From [Clostridium] symbiosum (GTDB taxonomy: Bacteria; Bacillota; Clostridia; Lachnospirales; Lachnospiraceae): a stretch of DNA of 40,131 nucleotides. A program made the translations under genes and the position numbers. The notes under the pieces were generated by a model. It was given only the letters and a program-made list of their open reading frames with translations. It was not told the origin of the DNA and searched no databases. Shown here in pieces: positions 1,664 to 12,511 of the stretch; position 1 is the stretch's first letter; each line of letters begins with the position of its first letter. The stretch is from assembly GCA_021769625.1 (NCBI GenBank), contig JAETSN010000038.1, forward strand, positions 1 to 40,131. Reading direction: 5' to 3'.

Positions 1664-1709
1664 TTGCTATAATGTAAAAGGTTTGGATATAATGAGATTA
1701 CTCGAGTAA
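1664..1709 (+). promoter_or_regulatory. Promoter and LacI operator of the regulator gene at 1742
   Basis: TTGCTA (1664-1669) and TATAAT (1688-1693) are separated by 18 nt. The perfect 12-bp palindrome TTACTCGAGTAA lies at 1698-1709, on the expected transcription start. The same palindrome occurs twice in the promoter of the transporter operon downstream, so the regulator probably represses its own gene. An alternative extended -10, TGCTATAAT, lies at 1665-1673. The operator has the central CG typical of LacI-family sites. Confidence 0.75.
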
Positions 1710-1741: not shown

Positions 1742-2710
1742 ATGGTATCCATGAAAGACATTGCGAATGCATTGAATTTATCAAGGTGCACAGTGTCGGA
1801 TATATTGAATGATAAATTGGAGCATAGATCTTATAAACCGGAAACAATAGAAATGGTCCGTGCGAAAGCGCAGGAAATGGGCTATATTTCAAACAACATT
1901 GCAAAATCATTAAAAACAGGTTCTACCAGAACTCTGGCGATCGTTGTTCCGCATTTAAGCAATCCTTTTTATACAAATATTATTCAGAAAGTGGAAAAAC
2001 TGGCAAACAGTGAAGATTACAGCCTGATCATATGTACAACGGAAGAAAAACTGGAAAAGGAAAATCATGTTCTGAATATGCTGACAAGCCGGATGGTAGA
2101 TGGCATTTTAATATCGCCGGTTTCTTATGAAAAATCACTTTTGAATAAATATTCTTATAAGATAGTTTGCTTTGATCGGTCAGTGAAAGGCGGAAAATAT
2201 CCTACGGCGCTGTTTGATAATAAGATGGCGGCTGAGGAGATCATGAGAAAGATGTTACAACGTGGCTGCAGAAGACCGTTATTTTTGAATACGGCAAAAT
2301 CCGATTATACGATTCACTGTAGGATGGATGGTTATAAGGAAACATTGGAAAAAGCCGGAATCATATTGGATGAAAAACTTGTTTATTATGATATTTATGA
2401 TAAGAGACAGTCTTATGAGATCATGTGTCATATTCTGGAGCAAAAAGACATACAGTTCGATTCTATTATTCTCGGTACTAATTTTTGCATTTATGGTGTT
2501 TTACGTGCTTTGAAAGAAAAAAGGGGAAAATTTGTCCCAGTAGCAGGCTTTGAGGATTTTGATGGTTCCGAAGTGATAGAAGGAGATTTTATCAAAGCGG
2601 TGCAGCCAGAGGAAAAAATTGGTGAAGAAGCTTTTTATCTGCTTCTTCAGTATCTGAACGGCAAAAAACCTTCGGATGTTTTTTTGAAAACTTACAGTAT
2701 TAAAGGATAA
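1742..2710 (+). CDS. LacI-family transcriptional regulator of the adjacent Lsr-like transport operon
   Basis: 322-aa DNA-binding repressor. Residues 4-60 form the LacI helix-turn-helix and hinge (MKDIANALNLSRCTVSDILN and the later helix ending NNIAKSLKTG). Residues from about 65 form a periplasmic-binding-protein-like effector domain that starts TLAIVVPHLSNPFYTNII. The start at 1742 has GGAGG at 1730-1734, 7 nt upstream; the Met at 1751 is a less well spaced alternative. The gene sits between its own operator (1698-1709) and two identical operators in the promoter of the next operon (2837-2877), which argues strongly for autoregulation and local control. The inducer is presumably the ligand of the importer or a product of it, but nothing in the sequence identifies it. 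Composition is AT-rich like the rest of the unit to 10.4 kb. Confidence 0.9.
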   Translation: MVSMKDIANALNLSRCTVSDILNDKLEHRSYKPETIEMVRAKAQEMGYISNNIAKSLKTGSTRTLAIVVPHLSNPFYTNIIQKVEKLANSEDYSLIICTTEEKLEKENHVLNMLTSRMVDGILISPVSYEKSLLNKYSYKIVCFDRSVKGGKYPTALFDNKMAAEEIMRKMLQRGCRRPLFLNTAKSDYTIHCRMDGYKETLEKAGIILDEKLVYYDIYDKRQSYEIMCHILEQKDIQFDSIILGTNFCIYGVLRALKEKRGKFVPVAGFEDFDGSEVIEGDFIKAVQPEEKIGEEAFYLLLQYLNGKKPSDVFLKTYSIKG

Positions 2711-2827: not shown

Positions 2828-2880
2828 TTGACATAGTTACTCGAGTAAGTTAAAATAATACATAGTTACTCGAGTAACTA
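2828..2880 (+). promoter_or_regulatory. Strong promoter with two LacI operators for the Lsr-like operon
   Basis: TTGACA (2828-2833) and TAAAAT (2851-2856) are separated by 17 nt. Operator O1, TTACTCGAGTAA (2837-2848), fills the spacer. Operator O2 (2866-2877) covers the expected start and extends to the 18-bp perfect palindrome TAGTTACTCGAGTAACTA (2863-2880). The operator centres are 29 bp apart, just under three helical turns, so two dimers would sit on almost the same face. The layout predicts tight repression by the upstream regulator. The AT-rich stretch 2711-2827 before it shows no gene or clear terminator. Confidence 0.88.
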
Positions 2881-2955
2881 ATATTTTACAAAGATCACGT
2901 TAATTTTAGTATAAGGTGGATGGAATCATGTCTGCTAAATAAGGGAGGCAAAAGA

Positions 2956-4455
2956 ATGAGTGAGCATGTCTTTTTAGAAATGTCAAATATCAGTATGACA
3001 TTTCCGGGGGTAAAAGCTCTTGACCAGGTAAGCTTAAATATCCGTGAGGGAGAAGTGCATGCTTTGATGGGAGAGAACGGAGCTGGAAAATCGACATTGA
3101 TCAAAATCATTTCCGGAGTACAGCAGCCAGATCCGGGGGCAAAGATCCTTATGGATGGAAAGGAAGTTGAATTTCCTAATGTTCATGCAAGCATCAAACT
3201 GGGAATTAATGCGATCCATCAGGATCTGAGCCTGTTTCAGAATCTGACAGTGGCAGAAAATATCTATTTGGGTCGTTCCAAAAAAGGAAAAATAGATTGG
3301 AAAGAATGCGACAGGATCGCAAAAGATGCATTGGAACGATTGTCAGTAGAGATGGACATTCATGAATTACTCGGAAATCTGAGTATGGCAAAACAGCAGT
3401 TAGTGGCAATTGCCCGTGCTATTTCTTTAAGCTCCAGATTGCTGATCATGGATGAGCCGACGGCTACGTTATCTTTCAGCGAAGTGCGGATGTTATATGA
3501 AATCATACAAAAATTGAAAAAGGAAAATATTGCCATTCTTTTTATCAGTCACAAACTGGATGAAGTATTTGAAGTTTCAGACAGAGTTACCGTGCTGAAA
3601 GATGGAAAATATGTCGGCTGTAAGAATATAGAGGAGTTGGATGAGAGTACGCTTGTTCAGATGATGGTGGGCAGATCTGTATCTTATGAGGCATTGAATC
3701 AGGAATCTTATGCAGCAGAAAAAATTCTGGAAGTTAAGAATATTTCCAAAGAAGGTAATTTTAAAGATATTTCTTTTACATTGCACAAAGGAGAAATTTT
3801 AGCCTTTACCGGACTGGTAGGCGCCGGAAGAAGCGAAACGGTCAAAGCGTTATTTGGCTTAAATCCGCCGGATGAGGGAGAAATCTTTATTCATGGAGAG
3901 CGGGTAGAGCTTAAAAAGGTTTCTCAGGCAATGAAGCATAAAATAGCTTTTATTCCGGAAGACAGACATCAGGAAGGCTTGATCCTGAATATGTCAATGA
4001 AGGATAATATCACATTATCTATTCTGACAAGTCTTTTAGACAAGCTGGGCTTTACGAACGGAAGGAAAATAGAGGACATATCAAAAGAATATGTGGATAC
4101 CCTGAACATAAAGCCGGGTCAGATCGAAAAGATGGCAAAGAATTTCAGCGGCGGCAATCAGCAAAAGATAGCGGTGGCCAAATGGCTTGTGACAAAGCCG
4201 GATATTCTGATCATTGATGAACCCACACATGGTGTTGATATTGCGTCGAAGACAGAAATCCATAAACTGCTGAAACGTCTGGCAAAAGAGGGGATGGCTA
4301 TTATTATGGTTTCATCCGAGTGGCAGGAAGTATTTGCGCTCAGCGACCGTGTTCTCGTAATGAGGCATGGAAGAATTGTACATGAGGACTCCACAAAGGA
4401 TGGAGATCAGAATCTGATGATGGAAAAAGCAATTCTTGGGGAGGGGAAAGCATGA
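2956..4455 (+). CDS. CUT2-type ABC importer ATPase (RbsA/LsrA-like), two nucleotide-binding domains
   Basis: 499-aa cytoplasmic ATPase with two fused ABC domains, as is usual for ribose/AI-2/xylose-class importers. Domain 1 has Walker A GENGAGKS at about 39-46, a non-canonical signature LSMAKQQ and Walker B LLIMDEPTATLS. Domain 2 has the degenerate Walker A GLVGAGRSE, the signature FSGGNQQK and Walker B ILIIDEPTHGVD. The start at 2956 is chosen because GGGAGG lies 6-9 nt upstream; an in-frame ATG at 2920 has no such site. It is the first gene of the operon behind the double-operator promoter. Its TGA overlaps the ATG of the next gene (ATGA, 4452-4455), so translation is probably coupled. The ATPase alone does not reveal the substrate. 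Confidence 0.93.
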   Translation: MSEHVFLEMSNISMTFPGVKALDQVSLNIREGEVHALMGENGAGKSTLIKIISGVQQPDPGAKILMDGKEVEFPNVHASIKLGINAIHQDLSLFQNLTVAENIYLGRSKKGKIDWKECDRIAKDALERLSVEMDIHELLGNLSMAKQQLVAIARAISLSSRLLIMDEPTATLSFSEVRMLYEIIQKLKKENIAILFISHKLDEVFEVSDRVTVLKDGKYVGCKNIEELDESTLVQMMVGRSVSYEALNQESYAAEKILEVKNISKEGNFKDISFTLHKGEILAFTGLVGAGRSETVKALFGLNPPDEGEIFIHGERVELKKVSQAMKHKIAFIPEDRHQEGLILNMSMKDNITLSILTSLLDKLGFTNGRKIEDISKEYVDTLNIKPGQIEKMAKNFSGGNQQKIAVAKWLVTKPDILIIDEPTHGVDIASKTEIHKLLKRLAKEGMAIIMVSSEWQEVFALSDRVLVMRHGRIVHEDSTKDGDQNLMMEKAILGEGKA

Positions 4456-5414
4456 AAAAGTTATTGGAGAGAAGGGAGACAAGTGTATTTCTGATATTAG
4501 CAGCTTTATGTATAGGGTTGACGATATATTCACCTGCGTTTTTATCCTATACTAACATTAAAAATGTGCTGGTCAGCAATACTGCTCTGGGAATCATGGC
4601 TGCCGGAATGACATTTATACTGATCACTGCCGGTATTGACGTTTCCGTAGCGAGCCAGATGATGTTTTCTGCGACCTGGCTGGCGCTGCTTGCGGAAACA
4701 CCAATGGGAAATCCTGTAACACTTGTACTGGCAGCCCTTCTGATCGGATTAATAACCGGCGCGGTCAATGGGTTTTTGATCTCACGCTATAATATTCATC
4801 CGATCATTATCACACTAGGTACAAACAGCCTTTACAGAGGCACGATCCTTGTAATAACAAACGGAAGATGGCTGATGAATCTCCCCAAATATTTCACGGC
4901 TTTTTCCAAAACGGTTTTCGGTATCCCGCTGCCTGTCGTATATGCACTGGTGATCTTTCTTGTTTCGGATTATCTGTTAAAAAATACATATTTCGGGCGT
5001 TCTATTTATGCCATGGGCGGAAACCGGGAAGCAGCAAGATATGCCGGCGTGGATTTAAAGAAAACAGTATTTTTAACATACACCTATACAGGGGTTTTAT
5101 GCGGTATTGCCGGCCTGGTATTAGATAGTATTTTAGGCAATTGTCAGCCTTCCGGCTCAAACGGATGGGAGATGAACGTTATCGCGGCGGCTGTTATAGG
5201 GGGAACGAATATTTTAGGCGGATACGGAACAATAGGGGGAACCGTAATAGGAGTTCTGATGATGGGAGTGATCGAAAACGGACTGGTAGTTGCCCATGTT
5301 CCAACGTATTGGCAGAAACTGGTATATGGCCTGATCATTATCGTTACAGTAACGATTGATGTGCTGCGTAAGAAAAAGGCAGATTCCAAAAAGCAGATGA
5401 TCGAAATTGATTAA
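4452..5414 (+). CDS. CUT2-type ABC importer permease 1 (RbsC/LsrC-like)
   Basis: 320-aa integral membrane protein of the BPD_transp_2 family. It has about ten hydrophobic segments and the family hallmarks AAGMTFILITAGIDVSVAS near residues 50-70, NGFLISRYNIHPIIITLGTNSLYRG around 106-130, and GGNREAARYAGV near 190. It forms half of the membrane channel. It overlaps the ATPase gene by four bases and is followed by a second, different permease, so the channel is probably a heterodimer, as in LsrC/LsrD, rather than the homodimer of ribose systems. Confidence 0.92.
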   Translation: MKKLLERRETSVFLILAALCIGLTIYSPAFLSYTNIKNVLVSNTALGIMAAGMTFILITAGIDVSVASQMMFSATWLALLAETPMGNPVTLVLAALLIGLITGAVNGFLISRYNIHPIIITLGTNSLYRGTILVITNGRWLMNLPKYFTAFSKTVFGIPLPVVYALVIFLVSDYLLKNTYFGRSIYAMGGNREAARYAGVDLKKTVFLTYTYTGVLCGIAGLVLDSILGNCQPSGSNGWEMNVIAAAVIGGTNILGGYGTIGGTVIGVLMMGVIENGLVVAHVPTYWQKLVYGLIIIVTVTIDVLRKKKADSKKQMIEID

Positions 5415-5427
5415 GGAGGAAGTTGAA

Positions 5428-6408
5428 ATGGAAAAAATGAAAAAGTTTAAGCTTTCACTGAATGGAATCGTGCTGTCGGCAGCATTTTTGGGGATCATGA
5501 TAATCGGAACGATAGTAAATGAAAATTTTCTGACGATAAGAAATATTTTATCGATTTTTCAGCAGATGCCTGAAATGGGAATTATGGCGATAGGGTTGAC
5601 GATCGTAATCATTACCGGCGGGAATGATCTGGCATCCGGTACTACGATGGGATTGTGTGCAGTAATATCCGGCTTATGTCTGACTTCAGGTATGCCGATT
5701 CCTCTTGCCCTATTGATCAGTGTGGCGGTAGCTGTCATATGCGGATGTATAAATGCTTTTTTAGTAGCAATCATCGGTATACCTCCTATGATTGCTACAC
5801 TGGGAACACAGATGTTCTTTTATGGAGGAGCGCTTGTGCTGAGTAAAGGAAATTCAATCTCAAATATACCGAGAGAATTTTACTTTCTGGGACAGGACAA
5901 AATTGCGGGAGTACCGCTGCAGGCTGTCATATTGATTCTTTTGACTGTCATTCTGGCTGTCGTATTGAAAAGAAGAGTATTTGGAAAACATTTATTTGCG
6001 ATTGGAAATAACTCCAAAGCCAGTGCTTATTCTGGAGTCCAGACAGAAAAGGTATTGTTCATGGCATACATCACCTGTTCGGTACTGTGCTGTATCGCAG
6101 GAAATATACAGGTATCGCGAGTGGCAACCGCGAGAGCGGATATGGGATATTCCTTCTTAATGCCCTGTATTTCAGCAGTTGTTTTAGGCGGTACAAGCAT
6201 TGACGGCGGAGTAGGAGGTGTAGGCGGTACTGTAGTGGGTGTGCTGATCTTTGCGATGATCAGCAATATCATGAATCTGGCGGGAATTTCTTCTTTCTGG
6301 CAGCAGTTGGCAACCGGGGGAATCCTGATCCTTGTAGTAGTATTCAACAAGATTACTGAAAATCATAAATTGCAGCGTAAAAAGAATGCCGGAAAAGCTG
6401 ATAAATAG
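5428..6408 (+). CDS. CUT2-type ABC importer permease 2 (RbsC/LsrD-like)
   Basis: 326-aa multi-pass membrane protein of the same family as permease 1 but clearly diverged from it. Hallmarks are AIGLTIVIITGGNDLASG near residues 52-70, AFLVAIIGIPPMIATLGTQMFFYGG around 115-140, and GNNSKASAYSGV near 195. The start is the ATG at 5428, preceded by AAGGAGGA (5414-5421). The longer TTG-initiated frame from 5407 would put this ribosome binding site inside the gene. The site overlaps the stop codon of permease 1, so the two are tightly coupled. Two non-identical permeases next to one ATPase and one binding protein give the gene order of lsrACDB. Confidence 0.92.
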   Translation: MEKMKKFKLSLNGIVLSAAFLGIMIIGTIVNENFLTIRNILSIFQQMPEMGIMAIGLTIVIITGGNDLASGTTMGLCAVISGLCLTSGMPIPLALLISVAVAVICGCINAFLVAIIGIPPMIATLGTQMFFYGGALVLSKGNSISNIPREFYFLGQDKIAGVPLQAVILILLTVILAVVLKRRVFGKHLFAIGNNSKASAYSGVQTEKVLFMAYITCSVLCCIAGNIQVSRVATARADMGYSFLMPCISAVVLGGTSIDGGVGGVGGTVVGVLIFAMISNIMNLAGISSFWQQLATGGILILVVVFNKITENHKLQRKKNAGKADK

Positions 6409-6476
6409 ATTATCCGGAAGACAGGAAAAAATGGAAGCAATTAACTTAAAATATAAAAAATAAAGGAGGTATGACT

Positions 6477-7535
6477 ATGAAAAAGGGAATTGCGTGGTTA
6501 CTGGTTATGGGAATGTGTGCAGGGCTTCTGGCAGGATGTGGAGGGCAGAGTGATACTGCTCAGGAGGCAGCAGCAGAACCGGGTGCGGAAGTGAGCGAAA
6601 GCGCAGAAGAAGCGTCCGGAGAGAATTCGGGGGGGTATACGATAGCGCTTATTCCGCAGCAGGTAGGTATTCCTTATTTTGAGACATCCGGTGTATGGGG
6701 AGAAAAAGCGGCAGAGGATTTGGGCTGTGAGGTGATCTATACCGGACCGACATCGGGGGATGCTGCAAGCCAGGCGAACATTGTCCAGGATATGATAACA
6801 AGAGGTGTGGACTGTATCGCAATTTCTCCGTTGGATGCAAGTGCTATTGAACCGGTATTAGAACAGGCAAAAGAGGCAGGAATCCTTGTAGTTACCTGGG
6901 ATTCGGATGTAAACAATACGGATCTGCGTGAAGTTTATGTTAACTGCTGTTCTGAGCAGGTACTGGGTGAGCATTTAATGGAACGTTTCGCGCATTACAT
7001 GGGAGAAGAAGGCGACTATGCGATCATAACAAGCGTATTGACAGCACAGAACTGTTCTGCATGGGCAAAATATGCTACGGAATATCAGGAGGCAAATTAT
7101 CCGAATATGCATCAGGTGGCATATGAACCCTGTGATGATGACCAGTCTAAAGCTTATTCCATCACACAGAATCTGATGACTGCTTATCCGGATTTAAAGG
7201 GTGTGTTGGGTGTGACAACTCCGGCACCTCCGGCAGCAGCACAGGCAGTAGGTGAGGCAGGGAAAAACGGCGAAGTTATTGTCAGCGGCGTAGTAGAAGC
7301 TTCAGCGGCAAAAGCATATCTGGAAGATGGTTCCATGCAGGAAGCAAATATCTGGCATCCCGGTAAGCTTGGATATCTGGCAATCTATACAGCAAAAACG
7401 ATCCTGGACGGCGGATCGATCGAAGATGGACAGGATGTGCCGGAAGTTGGAGTGGTTGAAGTAAAAGATGATCAGATCATTATGACAGAACTACTGGATA
7501 TCACAGTGGAAAATGTAGATGATTTTGATTTTTAA
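6477..7535 (+). CDS. LsrB/RhaS-type substrate-binding lipoprotein of the importer
   Basis: 352-aa extracellular solute-binding protein, lipid-anchored. The signal peptide ends at the lipobox LLAGC, with Cys21 as the mature N-terminus, followed by an acidic Ala/Glu/Ser linker to about residue 52. The folded part resembles LsrB: IPQQVGIPYFET, VIYTGPTSGDAASQ, LVVTWDSDV and APPAAAQAV. Compared with E. coli LsrB ligand residues K35, D116, D166, Q167, P220 and A222, this protein has Q61, D142, A190 and Q191, and it keeps the Pro-x-Ala pair near 252-254. Two of six contacts are therefore changed and AI-2 is an unlikely ligand. The ATG at 6477 is chosen over 6471 because AAGGAGGT (6463-6470) is 6 nt from 6477 but touches 6471. 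A hairpin follows the stop. Confidence 0.9.
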   Translation: MKKGIAWLLVMGMCAGLLAGCGGQSDTAQEAAAEPGAEVSESAEEASGENSGGYTIALIPQQVGIPYFETSGVWGEKAAEDLGCEVIYTGPTSGDAASQANIVQDMITRGVDCIAISPLDASAIEPVLEQAKEAGILVVTWDSDVNNTDLREVYVNCCSEQVLGEHLMERFAHYMGEEGDYAIITSVLTAQNCSAWAKYATEYQEANYPNMHQVAYEPCDDDQSKAYSITQNLMTAYPDLKGVLGVTTPAPPAAAQAVGEAGKNGEVIVSGVVEASAAKAYLEDGSMQEANIWHPGKLGYLAIYTAKTILDGGSIEDGQDVPEVGVVEVKDDQIIMTELLDITVENVDDFDF

Positions 7536-7550
7536 GATCTGAAAAAGAAG

Positions 7551-7580
7551 AGGCTGTCGTTCATGAAAATACGACAGCCT
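7551..7580 (+). terminator. Perfect 10-bp hairpin after the binding-protein gene (partial terminator or mRNA stabiliser)
   Basis: AGGCTGTCGT (7551-7560) and ACGACAGCCT (7571-7580) pair perfectly around a 10-nt loop. The T-tract behind it is short and broken (TTATAAAA). It lies within the operon, 22 nt before the next start codon. It could reduce expression of the three downstream genes relative to the binding protein, or protect the upstream mRNA from 3' decay. Confidence 0.6.
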
Positions 7581-7602
7581 TTATAAAAGGAGCAAAAGAG
7601 CT

Positions 7603-7977
7603 ATGAGTGGAAAAAAATCCTGGTATATTGTAGATGGATACCGCCCGCCGGAGAAACAGGGAGGCGCTGATGATTATCAAGGGCATGAGTGTATCATGAT
7701 ATTAAACTGTAATGATGAAGATGCGCATGTAAAGATCGATGTATATTTTATGGATAAGCCGCCGGTACTCGGAATAGATTATACTGCTCCGGCCAGACGG
7801 ATCAGTGCGTTTCGCAGTGATGATGAGAGTGTATTCGGAGAACTGAAATTAGGGATAGGGGAACAGTATTCTTTAAATATCACAAGCGATATTGGAATTG
7901 TTGTACAGTATGGAAGAATGGATATCAATCAACCGAATTTATCATATTTGGCAACGTTAGGATTTGCGGAGGGATAA
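7603..7977 (+). CDS. ASRT-family protein (Anabaena sensory rhodopsin transducer-like)
   Basis: 124-aa soluble protein, the same length as the Anabaena transducer, and recognisable over its whole length: WYIVDGYRPPEKQG at the N-terminus, then HECIMILNCNDEDAHVKIDVYFMDKPP, then YTAPARRISAFR, and VVQYGRMDINQPNLSYLATLGF at the C-terminus. The family is a small beta-sandwich that forms tetramers in Anabaena. Outside the rhodopsin system it has been proposed to be a small-molecule (possibly carbohydrate) binding domain. No rhodopsin gene is present here. It lies between the importer's binding-protein gene and two creatinase-like genes, 5 nt before the first of these, so a role in sensing or handling the imported ligand is plausible (inference). 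AAAGGAG precedes the start. Confidence 0.85.
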   Translation: MSGKKSWYIVDGYRPPEKQGGADDYQGHECIMILNCNDEDAHVKIDVYFMDKPPVLGIDYTAPARRISAFRSDDESVFGELKLGIGEQYSLNITSDIGIVVQYGRMDINQPNLSYLATLGFAEG

Positions 7978-7982
7978 TATAG

Positions 7983-9158
7983 ATGGAAAAAATTAAAATC
8001 TCATTGAAAGAGTTTGAAACCAGAATTCAGAGATTAAAAGAAAAAATGAAAGAGCAGAAAATAGATGCGCTGTTTGTGTATGGGGATGAGTACAGAAAAG
8101 AAAACCTGCGCTATGTATCTAATTACTGGCCGATCTTTGAAAGGGGAGGCCTGTTGGTAGGAAAGAATACAGATCCGATCGTACTGTGCGCGCCGGAGGG
8201 AGAAGAAGTGGCAAAAGAGATGAGCGTCTGGACGGATATCCGGCTGCTGCCCGATTTCTTATGCGTAACGGTGCCGGATGAGATAGAGTATCCGTTGGCT
8301 CATTACAGTAGTTTTCAGAAACTGGCACAGGAAATGCGGGAAACAGGTGAGTTGAGGAGATTGGGAATTGTCGGAAAAGATGCGATGTCTGTAGATCTGT
8401 ATCATTCTATAGAAAAGGCGTTCGGAGCAGAGATCATTAATTGTAATGATTTTCTCTATGAACTCCGTAAAGAGAAAAGCCCGGATGAGGTGGCATGCCT
8501 TAAAGAAGCGGCGAGGATCGCAGATCTTGGCTTTAAGGCGATGATGCAGACAGATCTGATCGGGATGACAGAGTTAGAAGCAGCGGGAATTGCGGAAGCA
8601 GCAGCGAGGAAAGCAGGGGCGGAACACATTATTTTCCAGATCTTCGGGAGTGGGGAGAGAACACATCGTATTGTGGGACGCCCTACAGATAAGATCATTG
8701 AAGACGGAGATATGATCATGTGCGCACTGGCTGTCCAGTATGAAGGATATGTGGCAACCTGTGAAATGCCTTTTGCGGTAGGCAATTATTCGGAAGAAAC
8801 CAAAAAGGTCATTGATGTGCTTGTGAGAGCTTTAAAAGCAGGAGTACCTTACCTGAAGGCCGGGATACCAATGAAGCAGTTTGTACAGGCTGTAAAAAAT
8901 GTATATAAGGAAGAAGGCTTATCAAAATATGATGTTTATCCGCCTCTTCATGGGATTGGCTGCGCAGAGGCAGAATCTCCTTATCCGGATGAAAATACAG
9001 AAGCAGTTTTCAAGGAAGGGATGACAGTAAATACAGATATCAGTCTGTTTGGTCTGCCGGGCGGGTCTAACAGAATAGAGGAAGGCTTTGTTATAACAAA
9101 AGAGGGGGCAGTTTCATTGTCGCCGTTTATAGATGCCTGCTGTAAAGAATGGAAATAA
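7983..9158 (+). CDS. Creatinase-like M24-family protein lacking the metal-binding aspartates (first of a tandem pair)
   Basis: 391 aa with a creatinase N-terminal domain (about 1-165) and a pita-bread M24 C-terminal domain (about 170-391). Against methionine aminopeptidase, the five metal ligands D, D, H, E, E correspond here to A248, T259, H323, D352 and E366, so both aspartates are gone. H228 in GSGERTH sits where the catalytic histidine of creatinase lies. A metal-independent amidinohydrolase or C-N hydrolase is therefore more likely than a Pro-aminopeptidase (inference). There is no signal peptide, so it is cytoplasmic. It starts 5 nt after the ASRT gene and is followed by a paralogue. 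The substrate is unknown and is presumably delivered by the importer. Confidence 0.85.
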   Translation: MEKIKISLKEFETRIQRLKEKMKEQKIDALFVYGDEYRKENLRYVSNYWPIFERGGLLVGKNTDPIVLCAPEGEEVAKEMSVWTDIRLLPDFLCVTVPDEIEYPLAHYSSFQKLAQEMRETGELRRLGIVGKDAMSVDLYHSIEKAFGAEIINCNDFLYELRKEKSPDEVACLKEAARIADLGFKAMMQTDLIGMTELEAAGIAEAAARKAGAEHIIFQIFGSGERTHRIVGRPTDKIIEDGDMIMCALAVQYEGYVATCEMPFAVGNYSEETKKVIDVLVRALKAGVPYLKAGIPMKQFVQAVKNVYKEEGLSKYDVYPPLHGIGCAEAESPYPDENTEAVFKEGMTVNTDISLFGLPGGSNRIEEGFVITKEGAVSLSPFIDACCKEWK

Positions 9159-9191
9159 AAATATAATGAAATAAATTAAAGGAGTTTAACT

Positions 9192-10373
9192 ATGAAAATC
9201 CGAATAGAGGATCAGGAATTCAGAGAAAGAGTTTGTAAAACGCAGGAAGTGATGAAACAGGAAGGAATAGATCTGCTCTTAGCTTATGGAAATGAAGCGG
9301 AGCCACAATATGTAAGATACTATTCCGATTACTGGCCGTCATTTGAATCTGCAGGAGTTTTGATGGCGGCGGAAGGTGATCCGATTTTGATCATTGGCCC
9401 GGAGAGCGGCACTTTTGCTGGAGATGTATCCAGGATTAAAAAGATAAGGCAGCTTCTGTGCTTCAGGGAATCTTCTGAGCCGGAATATCCGGGGATGAAG
9501 CTGGACGATTTTGTATCTGTGATGAAAGAAGCGGCAGAGGGTAAAGAAATAAAGAAACTGGGTATAGCGGGAAGCTGTCTGGTCACGCATGTTATTTATG
9601 AGGCACTACAGAAAGCTTTGCCGGAAGTCGGAAATCCGGAAGTTGTGAAAGCAGATTTACTGGTATCTAAAATAAGGGCAAATAAATCACCCGCAGAAAT
9701 TGCCTGCATGAGAGAAGCTTATCGGATCACACAGCTTGCCATGAAAAAGGTAGTGGAGAATATTCATGTCGGGATGACGGAAAACCAGGTAAAAGGGCTT
9801 GCCATGTCTGTTATTTATGAAGAAGGCGGAGAAGGAGAGGCGTATCCGTTCTGGATATTGACTGGAAAAGGTTCCAATCAGGCGATCAGCAGATGCCGTA
9901 ATAAAGTGATCGAGGAAGGTGACTTGGTACATATACAGGTAGGCACCCGCTATGAAGGATATGCGTCCACAATGGGACGTCCGGTAGTGATGGGAAAAGC
10001 AAATGAACTGCAAAGAGGTATCATTGAAGCAGGGCTGGCAGCGCAGCGTGCGATCCTTGAGACTGCAAAAGCAGGAATCAATGCAAAAGAAGTAAGCGAT
10101 GCACATTACAATACATTAAAAGAGCTGGGATATGAGGGGCATATTTTATATGGCCCATGCCATGGGACAGGATTGATGGAAGGGGAGTATCCCTGGATCG
10201 AGTCCAATTCCGATTATTTGCTGGAAGAAGGAATGACATTCTGTACATGTATCTATCTTGGTGATAACAAAAATCAGATCGGTATGCGGATCGAAGACGG
10301 TTTTCTGATCACAAAAGACGGGACAGAATCTTTTTCGGATTATCGCAGGGAAGTAATTGAGATTTATGACTAA
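9192..10373 (+). CDS. Creatinase-like M24-family protein, more degenerate paralogue (second of the pair)
   Basis: 393 aa with the same two-domain layout as its neighbour. Shared landmarks include (V/L)RYxSxYWP near residues 41-49, KSPxExAC near 165-172, YEGY near 254-257 and the HG(I/T)G loop. The metal-ligand positions read Q249, T260, H324, C353 and E368, so three of five are lost. The position of the creatinase catalytic His is N229. It may be a pseudoenzyme, a regulatory or binding subunit of a heteromer with the first M24 protein, or an enzyme with altered chemistry. AAGGAG lies about 7 nt before the ATG. It is the last gene of the operon and is followed by a strong terminator. Confidence 0.85.
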   Translation: MKIRIEDQEFRERVCKTQEVMKQEGIDLLLAYGNEAEPQYVRYYSDYWPSFESAGVLMAAEGDPILIIGPESGTFAGDVSRIKKIRQLLCFRESSEPEYPGMKLDDFVSVMKEAAEGKEIKKLGIAGSCLVTHVIYEALQKALPEVGNPEVVKADLLVSKIRANKSPAEIACMREAYRITQLAMKKVVENIHVGMTENQVKGLAMSVIYEEGGEGEAYPFWILTGKGSNQAISRCRNKVIEEGDLVHIQVGTRYEGYASTMGRPVVMGKANELQRGIIEAGLAAQRAILETAKAGINAKEVSDAHYNTLKELGYEGHILYGPCHGTGLMEGEYPWIESNSDYLLEEGMTFCTCIYLGDNKNQIGMRIEDGFLITKDGTESFSDYRREVIEIYD

Positions 10374-10406
10374 ATAAAGCCGAGATTTGGCAGCATTATT
10401 AGTAAA

Positions 10407-10445
10407 GGGCCTGGAACATCAGTGAGTGTTCTGGGCTCTTTGCTT
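10407..10445 (+). terminator. Intrinsic terminator closing the Lsr-like operon
   Basis: A 12-bp stem joins 10407-10418 (GGGCCTGGAACA) and 10427-10438 (TGTTCTGGGCTC), with three G-T wobbles and an 8-nt loop. It is followed by TTTGCTTTT. It separates the operon from the DUF3737 gene, which has its own promoter. Confidence 0.8.
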
Positions 10446-10473
10446 TTATGCCCGACAGCTATATCTAACTATG

Positions 10474-10547: not shown

Positions 10548-11408
10548 ATGAAGACGATTGAAAACCAGACCTTTGATATGGAGCGGGCTTTCTATGCGAG
10601 CAGTGGGATTGCTCTGAAAGATTGTACCTTTGACGGACCGGCGGACGGCGAGAGCGCTTTGAAGGAAAGTGAGGACATCCGGGTTTCCCATTGTTTTTTC
10701 AATTTGAGGTATCCGTTCTGGCATGACAACGGACTTATCATTACAGACTCGGAAATGACGGAGCTTTGCCGGGCGGCGCTGTGGTATTCCTCGGATATTG
10801 AGATCGCGGATACAAAGCTTCACGGGATCAAAGCGCTGCGGGAATGCAGCAGGGTAAAAATGCGGGGATGCGATATCATTTCGCCGGAGTTCGGGTGGTC
10901 GGTGCAGGATATGGAAATGAGGGACTGCAAGGCGCAGAGTGAATATTTCATGATGCGTTCCGAGCGACTTCATTTTACCGATGTGGAGCTGAAGGGGAAA
11001 TATTCTTTCCAGTATATTCAGGATTCCGTGTTTGAGGGCTGTCGTTTCGACACGAAGGACGCCTTCTGGCATGCAAAAAACGTGACGATCCGCGACAGTG
11101 TCATAAAAGGGGAATATCTTGCCTGGTATTGTGAAAACGTCACATTTGAAAACTGTAAGATCACAGGGACACAGCCACTGTGTTACTGCAGGAATTTAAA
11201 ACTTATAAACTGCGAGATGGCGGAGGCGGATCTGAGCTTTGAAAAGTCGGATGTGGAGGCAGTAATCACCACGCCGGTGGTGAGTATCAAAAATCCTCTG
11301 TCCGGCTGTATCCGGGTACCGCGTGTGGGGGAGATCATCCGCGATGATCCGAAGTCCAAAGCCGAGATCGTGGTACAGGATCAGAGACAGGAAAAATGTG
11401 ATATATAG
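10548..11408 (+). CDS. DUF3737 family protein, predicted right-handed beta-helix
   Basis: 286 aa. The sequence is a run of short beta-strand repeats of about 20 residues with alternating hydrophobic positions and repeated DC, NC and GC turns (for example LKDCTFDG, VSHCFFN, MRGCDI, FENCKI, LINCEM). This pattern is typical of pectate-lyase-like solenoids and of DUF3737. Aromatic-rich turns such as PFWHDN, ALWYSS, AFWHAK and LAWYCE recur at matching positions and could form a binding surface. No signal peptide is present. The ATG at 10548 has GAGGAG at 10533-10538; the frame is open further upstream, but those codons overlap the preceding terminator. The 3' end overlaps the convergent ROK gene by 28 bp. 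The function is not known. Confidence 0.8.
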   Translation: MKTIENQTFDMERAFYASSGIALKDCTFDGPADGESALKESEDIRVSHCFFNLRYPFWHDNGLIITDSEMTELCRAALWYSSDIEIADTKLHGIKALRECSRVKMRGCDIISPEFGWSVQDMEMRDCKAQSEYFMMRSERLHFTDVELKGKYSFQYIQDSVFEGCRFDTKDAFWHAKNVTIRDSVIKGEYLAWYCENVTFENCKITGTQPLCYCRNLKLINCEMAEADLSFEKSDVEAVITTPVVSIKNPLSGCIRVPRVGEIIRDDPKSKAEIVVQDQRQEKCDI

Positions 11409-12511
11409 TGGTTCAGCATCAGCAGGGCAGCGCCGATGGCCGAGGACTGCCTTTTGTGTCTGCCCGGAGAAATATAGGAGACGTCCGAATCAAATATACT
11501 GAGATCGAGGGCTTTCTGAAAAAATGAGCCGGGATACTGCGCGATATATCCGCCGATGTATCCGCCGAGGATGATATCGCAGTCGTAAGCCATCCGCAGG
11601 TTTGTGACGGCGGCGGCGAGATCGTCCAGATAGGTTTCCCAGCGCTTCGCGCACATTTCATCACCGGAGGCGAGGCGTTCAAAAAAGTCTTCAATGCGGT
11701 CATTCTCTTTCTCAAGCAGGACGCGTGCGGAACAGTAGGCGTCCAGACAGCCCGCCTTGCCGCAGTAGCACACTTTCCCACCCGGGTGGAGTATCATATG
11801 CCCGAATTCCCCGCTGCGGTAATGATCTCCGGCATACAGATTTCCGCCGTAATAGATCGCGCCGCCCACAGTGCCGCTCAGGGAGAGGTAAATGGTATTG
11901 GTTTCCTTTTCCTTCGGAATTTCCGCATAGGCGGCGCTGTTGGCATCATTTTCAAAATATGTTTTGTAGGGGATATATTGTGAAAAGGCGGAAAGGCTGA
12001 TGCCAGAGACACCTAAAATGTGCGACCGCTGCAGGGCGTTCGCTTTGGGGTCGATGATACCGGGGAGGGAGATCCCCACGCCGATGATCTTTTCCGGGGT
12101 GATATCATTGTTTTGGATGAAGGTCTCCAGATGCACATCCAGCGCGCGGTAATAGCGCTCCGTATCTTCATAGCGGAACTTAAAATAGGATTCGTTCACA
12201 GGTTCCCCGTTAAAATCCATCAGGATCAGGCGCAGGTGCCGTTTTGTGATATCCATTCCGATGACATATTTATATCCGGTGGCAAGGGATAATACTTTTG
12301 CCTTCCTGCCGCCGGTGGAATCAAATTCGCCCGTCTCGCACAATATGTTCCGTTCCAGCAGTTCCGTCACATAAGAAAAGACAGTGGGCATACTGAAACC
12401 AAGGCAGGATGCGATCTCCTGCCTTGATACATAGTGATGATCCAAAACAAATTTGATGATCTTTATTCTATTCTGGATTTTTACCTCGTTGTCTGTTTTC
12501 ATTTTTGGCAT
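11381..12511 (-). CDS. ROK-family transcriptional regulator (NagC/XylR type)
   Basis: 376 aa. The N-terminus (about 10-75) is a winged helix-turn-helix (VSRQEIASCLGFSMPTVFSYVTEL). It is followed by a ROK sugar-kinase-like domain with the zinc motif VCYCGKAGC preceded by GHMILHPGG. The ATP phosphate motif of true ROK kinases (DxGxT) is replaced by GMDITKRH, so this is a repressor and not a kinase. A probable inducer is a sugar or sugar phosphate. It lies downstream of, and in the same direction as, a zinc-dependent dehydrogenase, and it has its own promoter inside the 3' end of that gene. Neither possible start (12511 or 12502) has a good Shine-Dalgarno sequence. Its 3' end overlaps the DUF3737 gene tail-to-tail. 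Confidence 0.88.
   Translation of the reverse strand: MPKMKTDNEVKIQNRIKIIKFVLDHHYVSRQEIASCLGFSMPTVFSYVTELLERNILCETGEFDSTGGRKAKVLSLATGYKYVIGMDITKRHLRLILMDFNGEPVNESYFKFRYEDTERYYRALDVHLETFIQNNDITPEKIIGVGISLPGIIDPKANALQRSHILGVSGISLSAFSQYIPYKTYFENDANSAAYAEIPKEKETNTIYLSLSGTVGGAIYYGGNLYAGDHYRSGEFGHMILHPGGKVCYCGKAGCLDAYCSARVLLEKENDRIEDFFERLASGDEMCAKRWETYLDDLAAAVTNLRMAYDCDIILGGYIGGYIAQYPGSFFQKALDLSIFDSDVSYISPGRHKRQSSAIGAALLMLNHYISHFSCL

Follow-up and report, generated by a model that had tools for sequence, protein, structure and literature searches.

Solo ASRT proteins were placed beside sugar transporters in 2009 (De Souza et al. 2009, PMC2739507): the main text of that paper reports a solo ASRT gene adjoining a monosaccharide-type ABC transporter, with a predicted sugar-binding pocket, an isomerase-aldolase-kinase neighbourhood around the ASRT genes of Thermotoga and others and an inactive metallopeptidase close to a different, actinobacterial ASRAH family, and it proposes sugar sensing for the solo proteins. 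Here we describe an operon of [Clostridium] symbiosum in which an ASRT gene is accompanied by an importer and by two genes for M24 proteins, M24a and M24b; it lies in a stretch of 40,131 nucleotides (contig JAETSN010000038.1), called the window below. The operon shares with the published systems the solo ASRT gene and the monosaccharide ABC transporter, and differs from what the main text gives for them in the pocket motif, SHExxC there and GHE without the Cys here. That main text contains no word beginning with M24, creatinase, prolidase or peptidase, and literature searches, with subscription journals and preprints outside their coverage, found no ASRT-M24 link. The ASRT-M24 partnership is likely new to the literature. 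The original prediction had called the operon a candidate new system; its pairing of ASRT with a monosaccharide ABC transporter had in fact been published, and any novelty would reside in the link to M24.

Both M24 proteins of the operon fall in a metal-free clade of their family, and this clade accompanies a distinct subfamily of ASRT. Creatinase is metal-free, and both creatinase and ectoine hydrolase cleave C-N bonds; to our knowledge, few metal-free M24 proteins have a known function.

The M24 clade and its ASRT partners

Seven genes on the forward strand form a tight operon, and the Pfam scores of all seven proteins are far over the cut-offs:

2953..4455, + strand: CUT2-type ATPase with two ABC domains, 500 amino acids (PF00005, 197 bits, 2 stretches)
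4452..5414, + strand: permease 1, 320 amino acids (PF02653, 150 bits)
5428..6408, + strand: permease 2, 326 amino acids (PF02653, 125 bits)
6477..7535, + strand: RhaS/LsrB-like substrate-binding protein, 352 amino acids (PF13407, 214 bits)
7603..7977, + strand: ASRT protein with the motif GHECIMILN, 124 amino acids (PF07100, 105 bits, cut-off 25, residues 3-121)
7983..9158, + strand: M24a, metal-less protein of creatinase/prolidase fold, 391 amino acids (PF00557, 107 bits, plus Creatinase_N)
9192..10373, + strand: M24b, second metal-less paralogue, 393 amino acids, 33% identical to M24a (PF00557, 132 bits, plus Creatinase_N)

The start of the ATPase gene is placed at 2953, in front of which a ribosome site was seen by eye; an in-frame ATG at 2920 is also possible. 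That these genes make up one operon had been predicted before, and all parts were found in the predicted order with Pfam support.

At the metal-ligand positions of the M24 alignment, M24a reads A,T,H,D,E and M24b reads Q,T,H,C,E, compared with D,D,H,E,E in a control from the same genome (L140). Each protein has lost three of the five ligands and retained one His and one Glu, and the position of the catalytic His is occupied by Val in M24a and by Ile in M24b. Pairwise alignments to 3q6d and 1wy2 agree with the ligand losses, and the earlier description of both proteins as metal-less is borne out by comparison with the canonical M24 proteins of the own genome (among these controls L150 reads D,D,H,D,E, and the D of L139 in the last ligand column is a misalignment). 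The alignment comprised 89 rows of non-identical sequences of at least 340 amino acids; the tree was built without L141, the same gene being present as L150.

The same losses, of ligands and of the catalytic His, were found in 62 of 63 full-length M24 proteins encoded within 1.5 kb of ASRT genes. The sole exception, L122 (M24 at 9149-10348), has all metal ligands and lies on the strand opposite to ASRT, and for this reason is probably an unrelated neighbour. Over 83 metal-less sequences the residues E10, R14, Y44, E53, R162, K165, E169, E197 and Y256 (M24a numbers) are invariant, as are H323, E329, E331, R364, E366 and some glycines. Loss of the metal ligands alongside an invariant charged cluster, which includes new residues such as Glu329, argues for selection on the active site. 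From these sequences the clade looks as if its active site had been remodelled, and M24a and M24b are probably enzymes.

Of 397 genomes sampled from the own family, 19 carry ASRT, as do 71 of 391 sampled from the class. An M24 gene was located within 1.5 kb at 56 of 118 distinct ASRT places (17/29 in the own family, 39/89 in the class sample) and shares the strand of the ASRT gene in 55 of these; a rough estimate puts the chance expectation at about 0.8%. The 118 places are all those listed except the window, the weak family place G194/L020 and L179, a match with stops and no ASRT open reading frame (ORF); L183, a weak ASRT match, was scored as unlinked. The probability calculated for the adjacency took 57 of 122 rows (window added, four duplicates in), assumed independence and is indicative only. 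An M24 partner is not the rule for every ASRT: none lies within 1.5 kb of the 30 ASRT places that scored best in the class sample.

The classical ASRT motif SHExxCxxN of the TM1070/Anabaena type is absent from the window protein. Its pocket Cys, a reported ethanediol contact in TM1070, is found in none of 62 M24-linked ASRTs, versus 47 of 60 unlinked and all five plasmid-borne ones, and Gly occupies the first motif position in 60/62 linked versus 10/60 unlinked proteins. By this difference in the pocket motif the M24-linked ASRTs look like a subfamily of their own.

Spirochaetes encode similar pairs. Among 297 genomes sampled from the class of the spirochaete to which L042 belongs, 9 have ASRT genes. 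Twelve near-full-length ASRT ORFs with 1.5-kb flanks were inspected, and a piece of M24 was present on nine of these loci, on the same strand in L191, L205, L206 and L213-L215 and on the opposite strand in L210-L212. A creatininase-like gene accompanied four of the twelve (L208, L210-L212), and neither partner was seen in two (L207, L209). All twelve proteins carry a GHE/AHE motif without Cys. One genome of this sample (G822) gave five ASRT matches, with one region in two pieces (L216/L217) and a stop inside the second.

Related loci and their third genes

Conservation beyond one strain, the test attached to the original prediction, was confirmed: four sister loci (L031, L032, L033 and L043) keep the importer, M24a and M24b at 68-93% identity, and ASRT with M24 recurs in the class and in spirochaetes. 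The four sister loci are without an intact ASRT gene in this place. Other loci with M24a encode a close ASRT, identical to the window protein at 74% (L036), 72% (L080), 66% (L037) and 60% (L040).

In the tree M24a and M24b each form a supported clade. Members of the M24b clade were located in M24a-bearing loci in nine of ten cases (the exception is L126), and M24a loci without M24b on the stretch covered are L034, L035, L037, L038, L040 and L041, some of them on short contigs. The two proteins tend to occur together. The own genome has a second unit of this type on contig C79 at about 141.0-151 kb (L074, L148), where the order is M24, ASRT, a gene similar to Mac-type hexapeptide (sugar) acetyltransferases, LacI, binding protein, ATPase, two permeases, LacI and a metal-less M24. 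Four of the seven M24 matches of the genome are metal-less, and all four belong to the window operon and the C79 unit.

Many relatives carry a third gene for a hydrolase. Among 72 M24-ORF loci, a creatininase-like gene was found in 27, a PTE-like gene in 11, an M81/MlrC-like gene in 10 and none in 24 (partners called from own seeds, same strand, within 4 kb); no locus of the 72 has two of the three types together. The partner type goes with the M24 subclade, which makes this a clade-level pattern, and a shuffle test of the exclusivity is for that reason not a fair probability. L-rhamnose mutarotase was found near 8/72 loci. Other neighbours are DUF4432, Mac-type acetyltransferases, GFO/IDH/MocA and GH3, with M19, M20 and amidohydrolases in single cases; the scan covered 132 of 181 unannotated neighbours (130-760 amino acids, closed, less than 70% identical) and the 25 commonest of 137 families. 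We read sugar chemistry together with amide-type hydrolysis as the common denominator of these genes.

The commonest third gene belongs to PF02633, the family of IolN, creatininase and MftE. Three linked proteins of this family were scanned and were far below all three equivalog cut-offs, and the family is absent from the window operon. A creatine/creatinine pathway proper, to which the creatininase-like neighbours had pointed, was rejected, since these three score far below the cut-off for creatininase and also weakly match IolN and MftE. The only PF02633 gene of the own genome is on another contig and scores only 29 bits with the profile of the linked proteins; the same genome yielded no PTE gene.

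Control of the operon

Besides the genes, the following elements were identified:

1698..1709: operator TTACTCGAGTAA, a palindrome, 5' of lacI (exact match)
1742..2710, + strand: LacI-family local repressor, 322 amino acids (PF00532, 64 bits)
2828..2856, + strand: sigma-70-like promoter TTGACA-17-TAAAAT, 11/12 in the promoter scan
2837..2848: operator TTACTCGAGTAA inside the -35/-10 spacer (exact match)
2866..2877: operator TTACTCGAGTAA just 3' of the -10 box (exact match)
7549..7582, + strand: 12-pair hairpin at the junction of importer and ASRT-M24 genes (-19.6 kcal/mol for 7530-7600, z -4.6)
10401..10444, + strand: 19-pair terminator-like hairpin after M24b (-33.3 kcal/mol for 10371-10450, z -5.9)

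The double-operator promoter and the strong terminator of the original prediction are both in place, the former as two exact operators at the TTGACA/TAAAAT promoter and the latter as a hairpin that was not picked up by a simple scanner despite its folding z score. The lacI gene, the third operator and the hairpin at 7549-7582 are additions to it. That hairpin possibly sets the ratio of importer to enzyme expression. At the same junction between binding protein and ASRT or M24 genes, a hairpin-like sequence was seen by eye in L031, L032 and L033 too.

The LacI helix-turn-helix domain (PF00356) scores 24.7 bits, slightly below its cut-off of 27, and near full-length matches were obtained with the LacI-type models of NCBIfam, every one below cut-off. 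In 12 kb the promoter scan returned 36 promoter-like sites, compared with 25.3 in shuffles; the best score, 11/12, is shared by 2828-2856 and one other site. Three operator matches with up to two mismatches were reached in 11 of 100 shuffles and are thus not rare by count; unusual is that all three are exact and are located at the two promoters. Operators occupy the equivalent three places in L031, L032 and L043.

A scan of the complete 4.08-Mb genome for a 13-base form of the operator, with one mismatch allowed, gave the three window sites only (a backward-read control gave 0 forward and 3 reverse matches) and revealed no other gene under the same repressor. With its operator confined to these sites, the locus looks like a regulatory unit of its own; no catabolic gene elsewhere was seen to share the operator. 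Regulation of the operon by LacI is, in our view, very likely. Exact copies of TTACTCGAGTAA were also noticed at L094:1001 and L095:664, both loci having CUT2, ASRT and M24 genes and a LacI gene nearby.

The loci L080 and L081 are arranged differently: paired GTACTCGAGTAT-like operators precede both M24b and the importer-PTE-ASRT genes, and M24a is located further upstream, adjoining another LacI gene. The shared operators point to co-regulation of M24b with import, although it is encoded apart from the importer.

Downstream of the window operon a DUF3737 gene (10548-11408) is followed by a convergent gene, ROK/NagC-like by eye (11381-12511).

Candidate substrate and chemistry

The importer has the components of the CUT2 family: a double-domain ATPase, BPD_transp_2 permeases and a Peripla_BP_4 binding protein. 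RhaS and LsrB are the nearest models to the binding protein, and the gene order ATPase-permease-permease-binding protein resembles that of lsrACDB. Uptake of autoinducer-2 (AI-2, the Lsr system) or of L-rhamnose, with accessory genes, would be consistent with this, as would the four of six AI-2 contacts, presumably K35, D116, D166, Q167, P220 and A222 in LsrB, that appear kept. However, every NCBIfam equivalog cut-off was missed, in bits, for LsrA (393/586), LsrB (157/384), LsrC (187/388), LsrD (174/500) and RhaS (TIGR02637, 209 versus 342). Relative to SmLsrB, IPKL has become IPQQ and TDQN has become TAQN, so that Lys and Asp of the presumed AI-2 site are replaced by Gln and Ala, and the operon contains neither LsrK/F/G-type genes nor a rhamnose isomerase, kinase or aldolase. 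The AI-2 reading was rejected on the cut-offs and the two changed contact residues, in line with the original prediction, and the combined AI-2 or rhamnose explanation is very improbable. It is fairly likely that the imported compound is a carbohydrate-like ligand.

The predicted structure of M24a has a predicted local distance difference test score (pLDDT) of 91.5, and the top 50 solved structures resembling it include prolidases, creatinase and ectoine hydrolase at template modelling (TM) scores of 0.72-0.82. Creatinase (1chm, 7yto, 1kp0) shares the M24 pita-bread fold (TM 0.81-0.82) but only 18-20% identity, and has its catalytic His232 where Val or Ile stands here; this comparison is indirect, creatinase itself being outside the ligand alignment. 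Ectoine hydrolase EutD/DoeA (6twk, 6yo9, 6twj) also shares the fold (TM 0.76-0.80), whereas its models score far under their cut-offs: TIGR02993 gave 20.7 bits for M24a and 81.9 for M24b against 613, and NF038259 gave 52.5 and 68.8 against 575. A profile search placed prolidase-type proteins nearest (1.4e-53), followed by creatinase (2.8e-22) and ectoine hydrolase (2.6e-15), and SPT16 was also matched. M24a and M24b thus appear not to be ectoine hydrolases, judging by cut-off, nor creatinases or prolidases, judging by the residues tested.

We propose that the operon is a catabolic module, complete in itself and under LacI control, which handles a carbohydrate-like compound and in which metal-free M24 proteins act on a C-N or similar bond; taken as a whole, this reading falls somewhat short of an even chance. 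LacI would leave the promoter once its ligand is present, and the CUT2 transporter would import a carbohydrate-like compound that also has a C-N bond, of amide, amidine or glycosylamine type, or one similar to it. Working as homodimers or as a heterodimer, M24a and M24b would convert this compound without metal, using the invariant His323, Glu329, Glu331, Arg364 and Glu366, Tyr44 and Glu53 of the N-domain, and Asp352 (Cys in M24b). In many relatives a separate metallohydrolase of creatininase, PTE or M81 type would perform a further hydrolysis, for which a second M24 might stand here. A sugar context is suggested by the families of importer and binding protein and by the rhamnose mutarotase, DUF4432, acetyltransferase, GFO/IDH/MocA and GH3 neighbours, and a C-N context by the creatininase-like, M81, M19, M20 and amidohydrolase partners. 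C-N chemistry is our first, if tentative, choice for two reasons: it is the chemistry of the known metal-free M24 hydrolases, and most of the alternating partners come from amide-hydrolase families.

The main rival is a pure carbohydrate pathway, in which the substrate of the M24 proteins would be a sugar, a sugar acid or a cyclitol and their reaction a C-O or C-C step (lactone opening, dehydration, retro-aldol or epimerisation), with no nitrogen in the bond. It would agree with the sugar-type importer, with the recurrent rhamnose mutarotase, aldose-epimerase-like, GFO/IDH/MocA and GH3 neighbours, with the creatininase-like partners being about equally weak against creatininase and IolN (3-dehydro-scyllo-inosose hydrolase), and with PTE-like proteins, which include lactonases. 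We nevertheless hold it to be on the unlikely side, as M19, M20, M81 and amidohydrolases, all present among the partners, belong with peptidases or amide hydrolases and we know of no M24 protein with C-O or C-C chemistry. Loss of three metal ligands and the catalytic His in 62/63 proteins, SPT16 among the profile matches and the lack of a further gene sharing the operator would suit pseudoenzymes: proteins without catalysis that bind a ligand or form a scaffold, comparable to the M24-fold part of SPT16, which is non-catalytic, and that work together with ASRT as sensors. This is distinctly unlikely in view of the charged cluster so strongly conserved at the old active site, with its new invariant Glu329, and of the two paralogues per operon; the operon would, moreover, hold an importer yet no enzyme. 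Ordinary dipeptide use, with unusual prolidases and an importer of peptides or glycopeptides, draws on prolidases being the closest solved structures and is improbable, because the metal ligands required for prolidase activity are missing and the importer is of sugar type.

Several observations weigh against the catabolic module that we propose. In sequence the M24 proteins resemble metal-dependent prolidases more closely than they do creatinase or ectoine hydrolase, and with Val or Ile at the catalytic-His position the creatinase mechanism is not simply transferable. As the partner type follows the M24 subclade, its exclusivity may reflect ancestry and not functional replacement, and C-N chemistry is not compelled, since PTE-like and IolN-type proteins can act on C-O or C-C bonds. 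The operators shared in L080 and L081 do not have M24a immediately after them. The link between ASRT and the M24a-M24b pair is not strict either: L039 and L042 encode both M24 proteins, yet their ASRT adjoins a third M24 and has only 34% and 30% identity to that of the window. The lack of an intact ASRT gene in this place at the four sister loci indicates that ASRT is not essential to the core reaction everywhere.

In the proposed module ASRT, as a tetrameric pocket protein, would act in the cytosol, where it would bind ligand or product and so either present it or adjust the flux; a role as ligand binder is slightly favoured. In its broadest form, which is rather unlikely as a whole, the proposal would define a new class of metal-free M24 enzymes with a dedicated ASRT subfamily in Clostridia and spirochaetes, often joined by one of three mutually unrelated metallohydrolases and degrading carbohydrate-nitrogen conjugates (e.g., glycated or glycosylamine-type amides) delivered by sugar importers, with ASRT as cytosolic ligand carrier or allosteric subunit. 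This would add an uptake-and-breakdown route in Clostridia and, if ASRT is such a carrier or subunit, answer what its role is outside rhodopsin-bearing cells. The questions of ASRT and metal-free M24 function both become testable in one small operon whose importer is simple, whose repressor is its own and whose regulon showed no further member.

A C-terminal ASRT remnant, 72-74% identical to the window protein, was found at L032:9801-9995 and L043:7200-7394, and this makes a recent insertion of ASRT in the present strain unlikely. The remnant covers part of the gap that precedes M24a, overlaps the binding-protein gene at its end and looks like a gene being lost. ASRT genes were also observed on plasmids. 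In a Natrononativus plasmid (haloarchaeon; L136:9001-11032) two of them flank an annotated D-arabinono-1,4-lactone oxidase gene, and in a Klebsiella pneumoniae plasmid (L134) one is located between insertion sequences, beside a mandelate-racemase-family gene, a GntR regulator, an SDR and a sugar porter.

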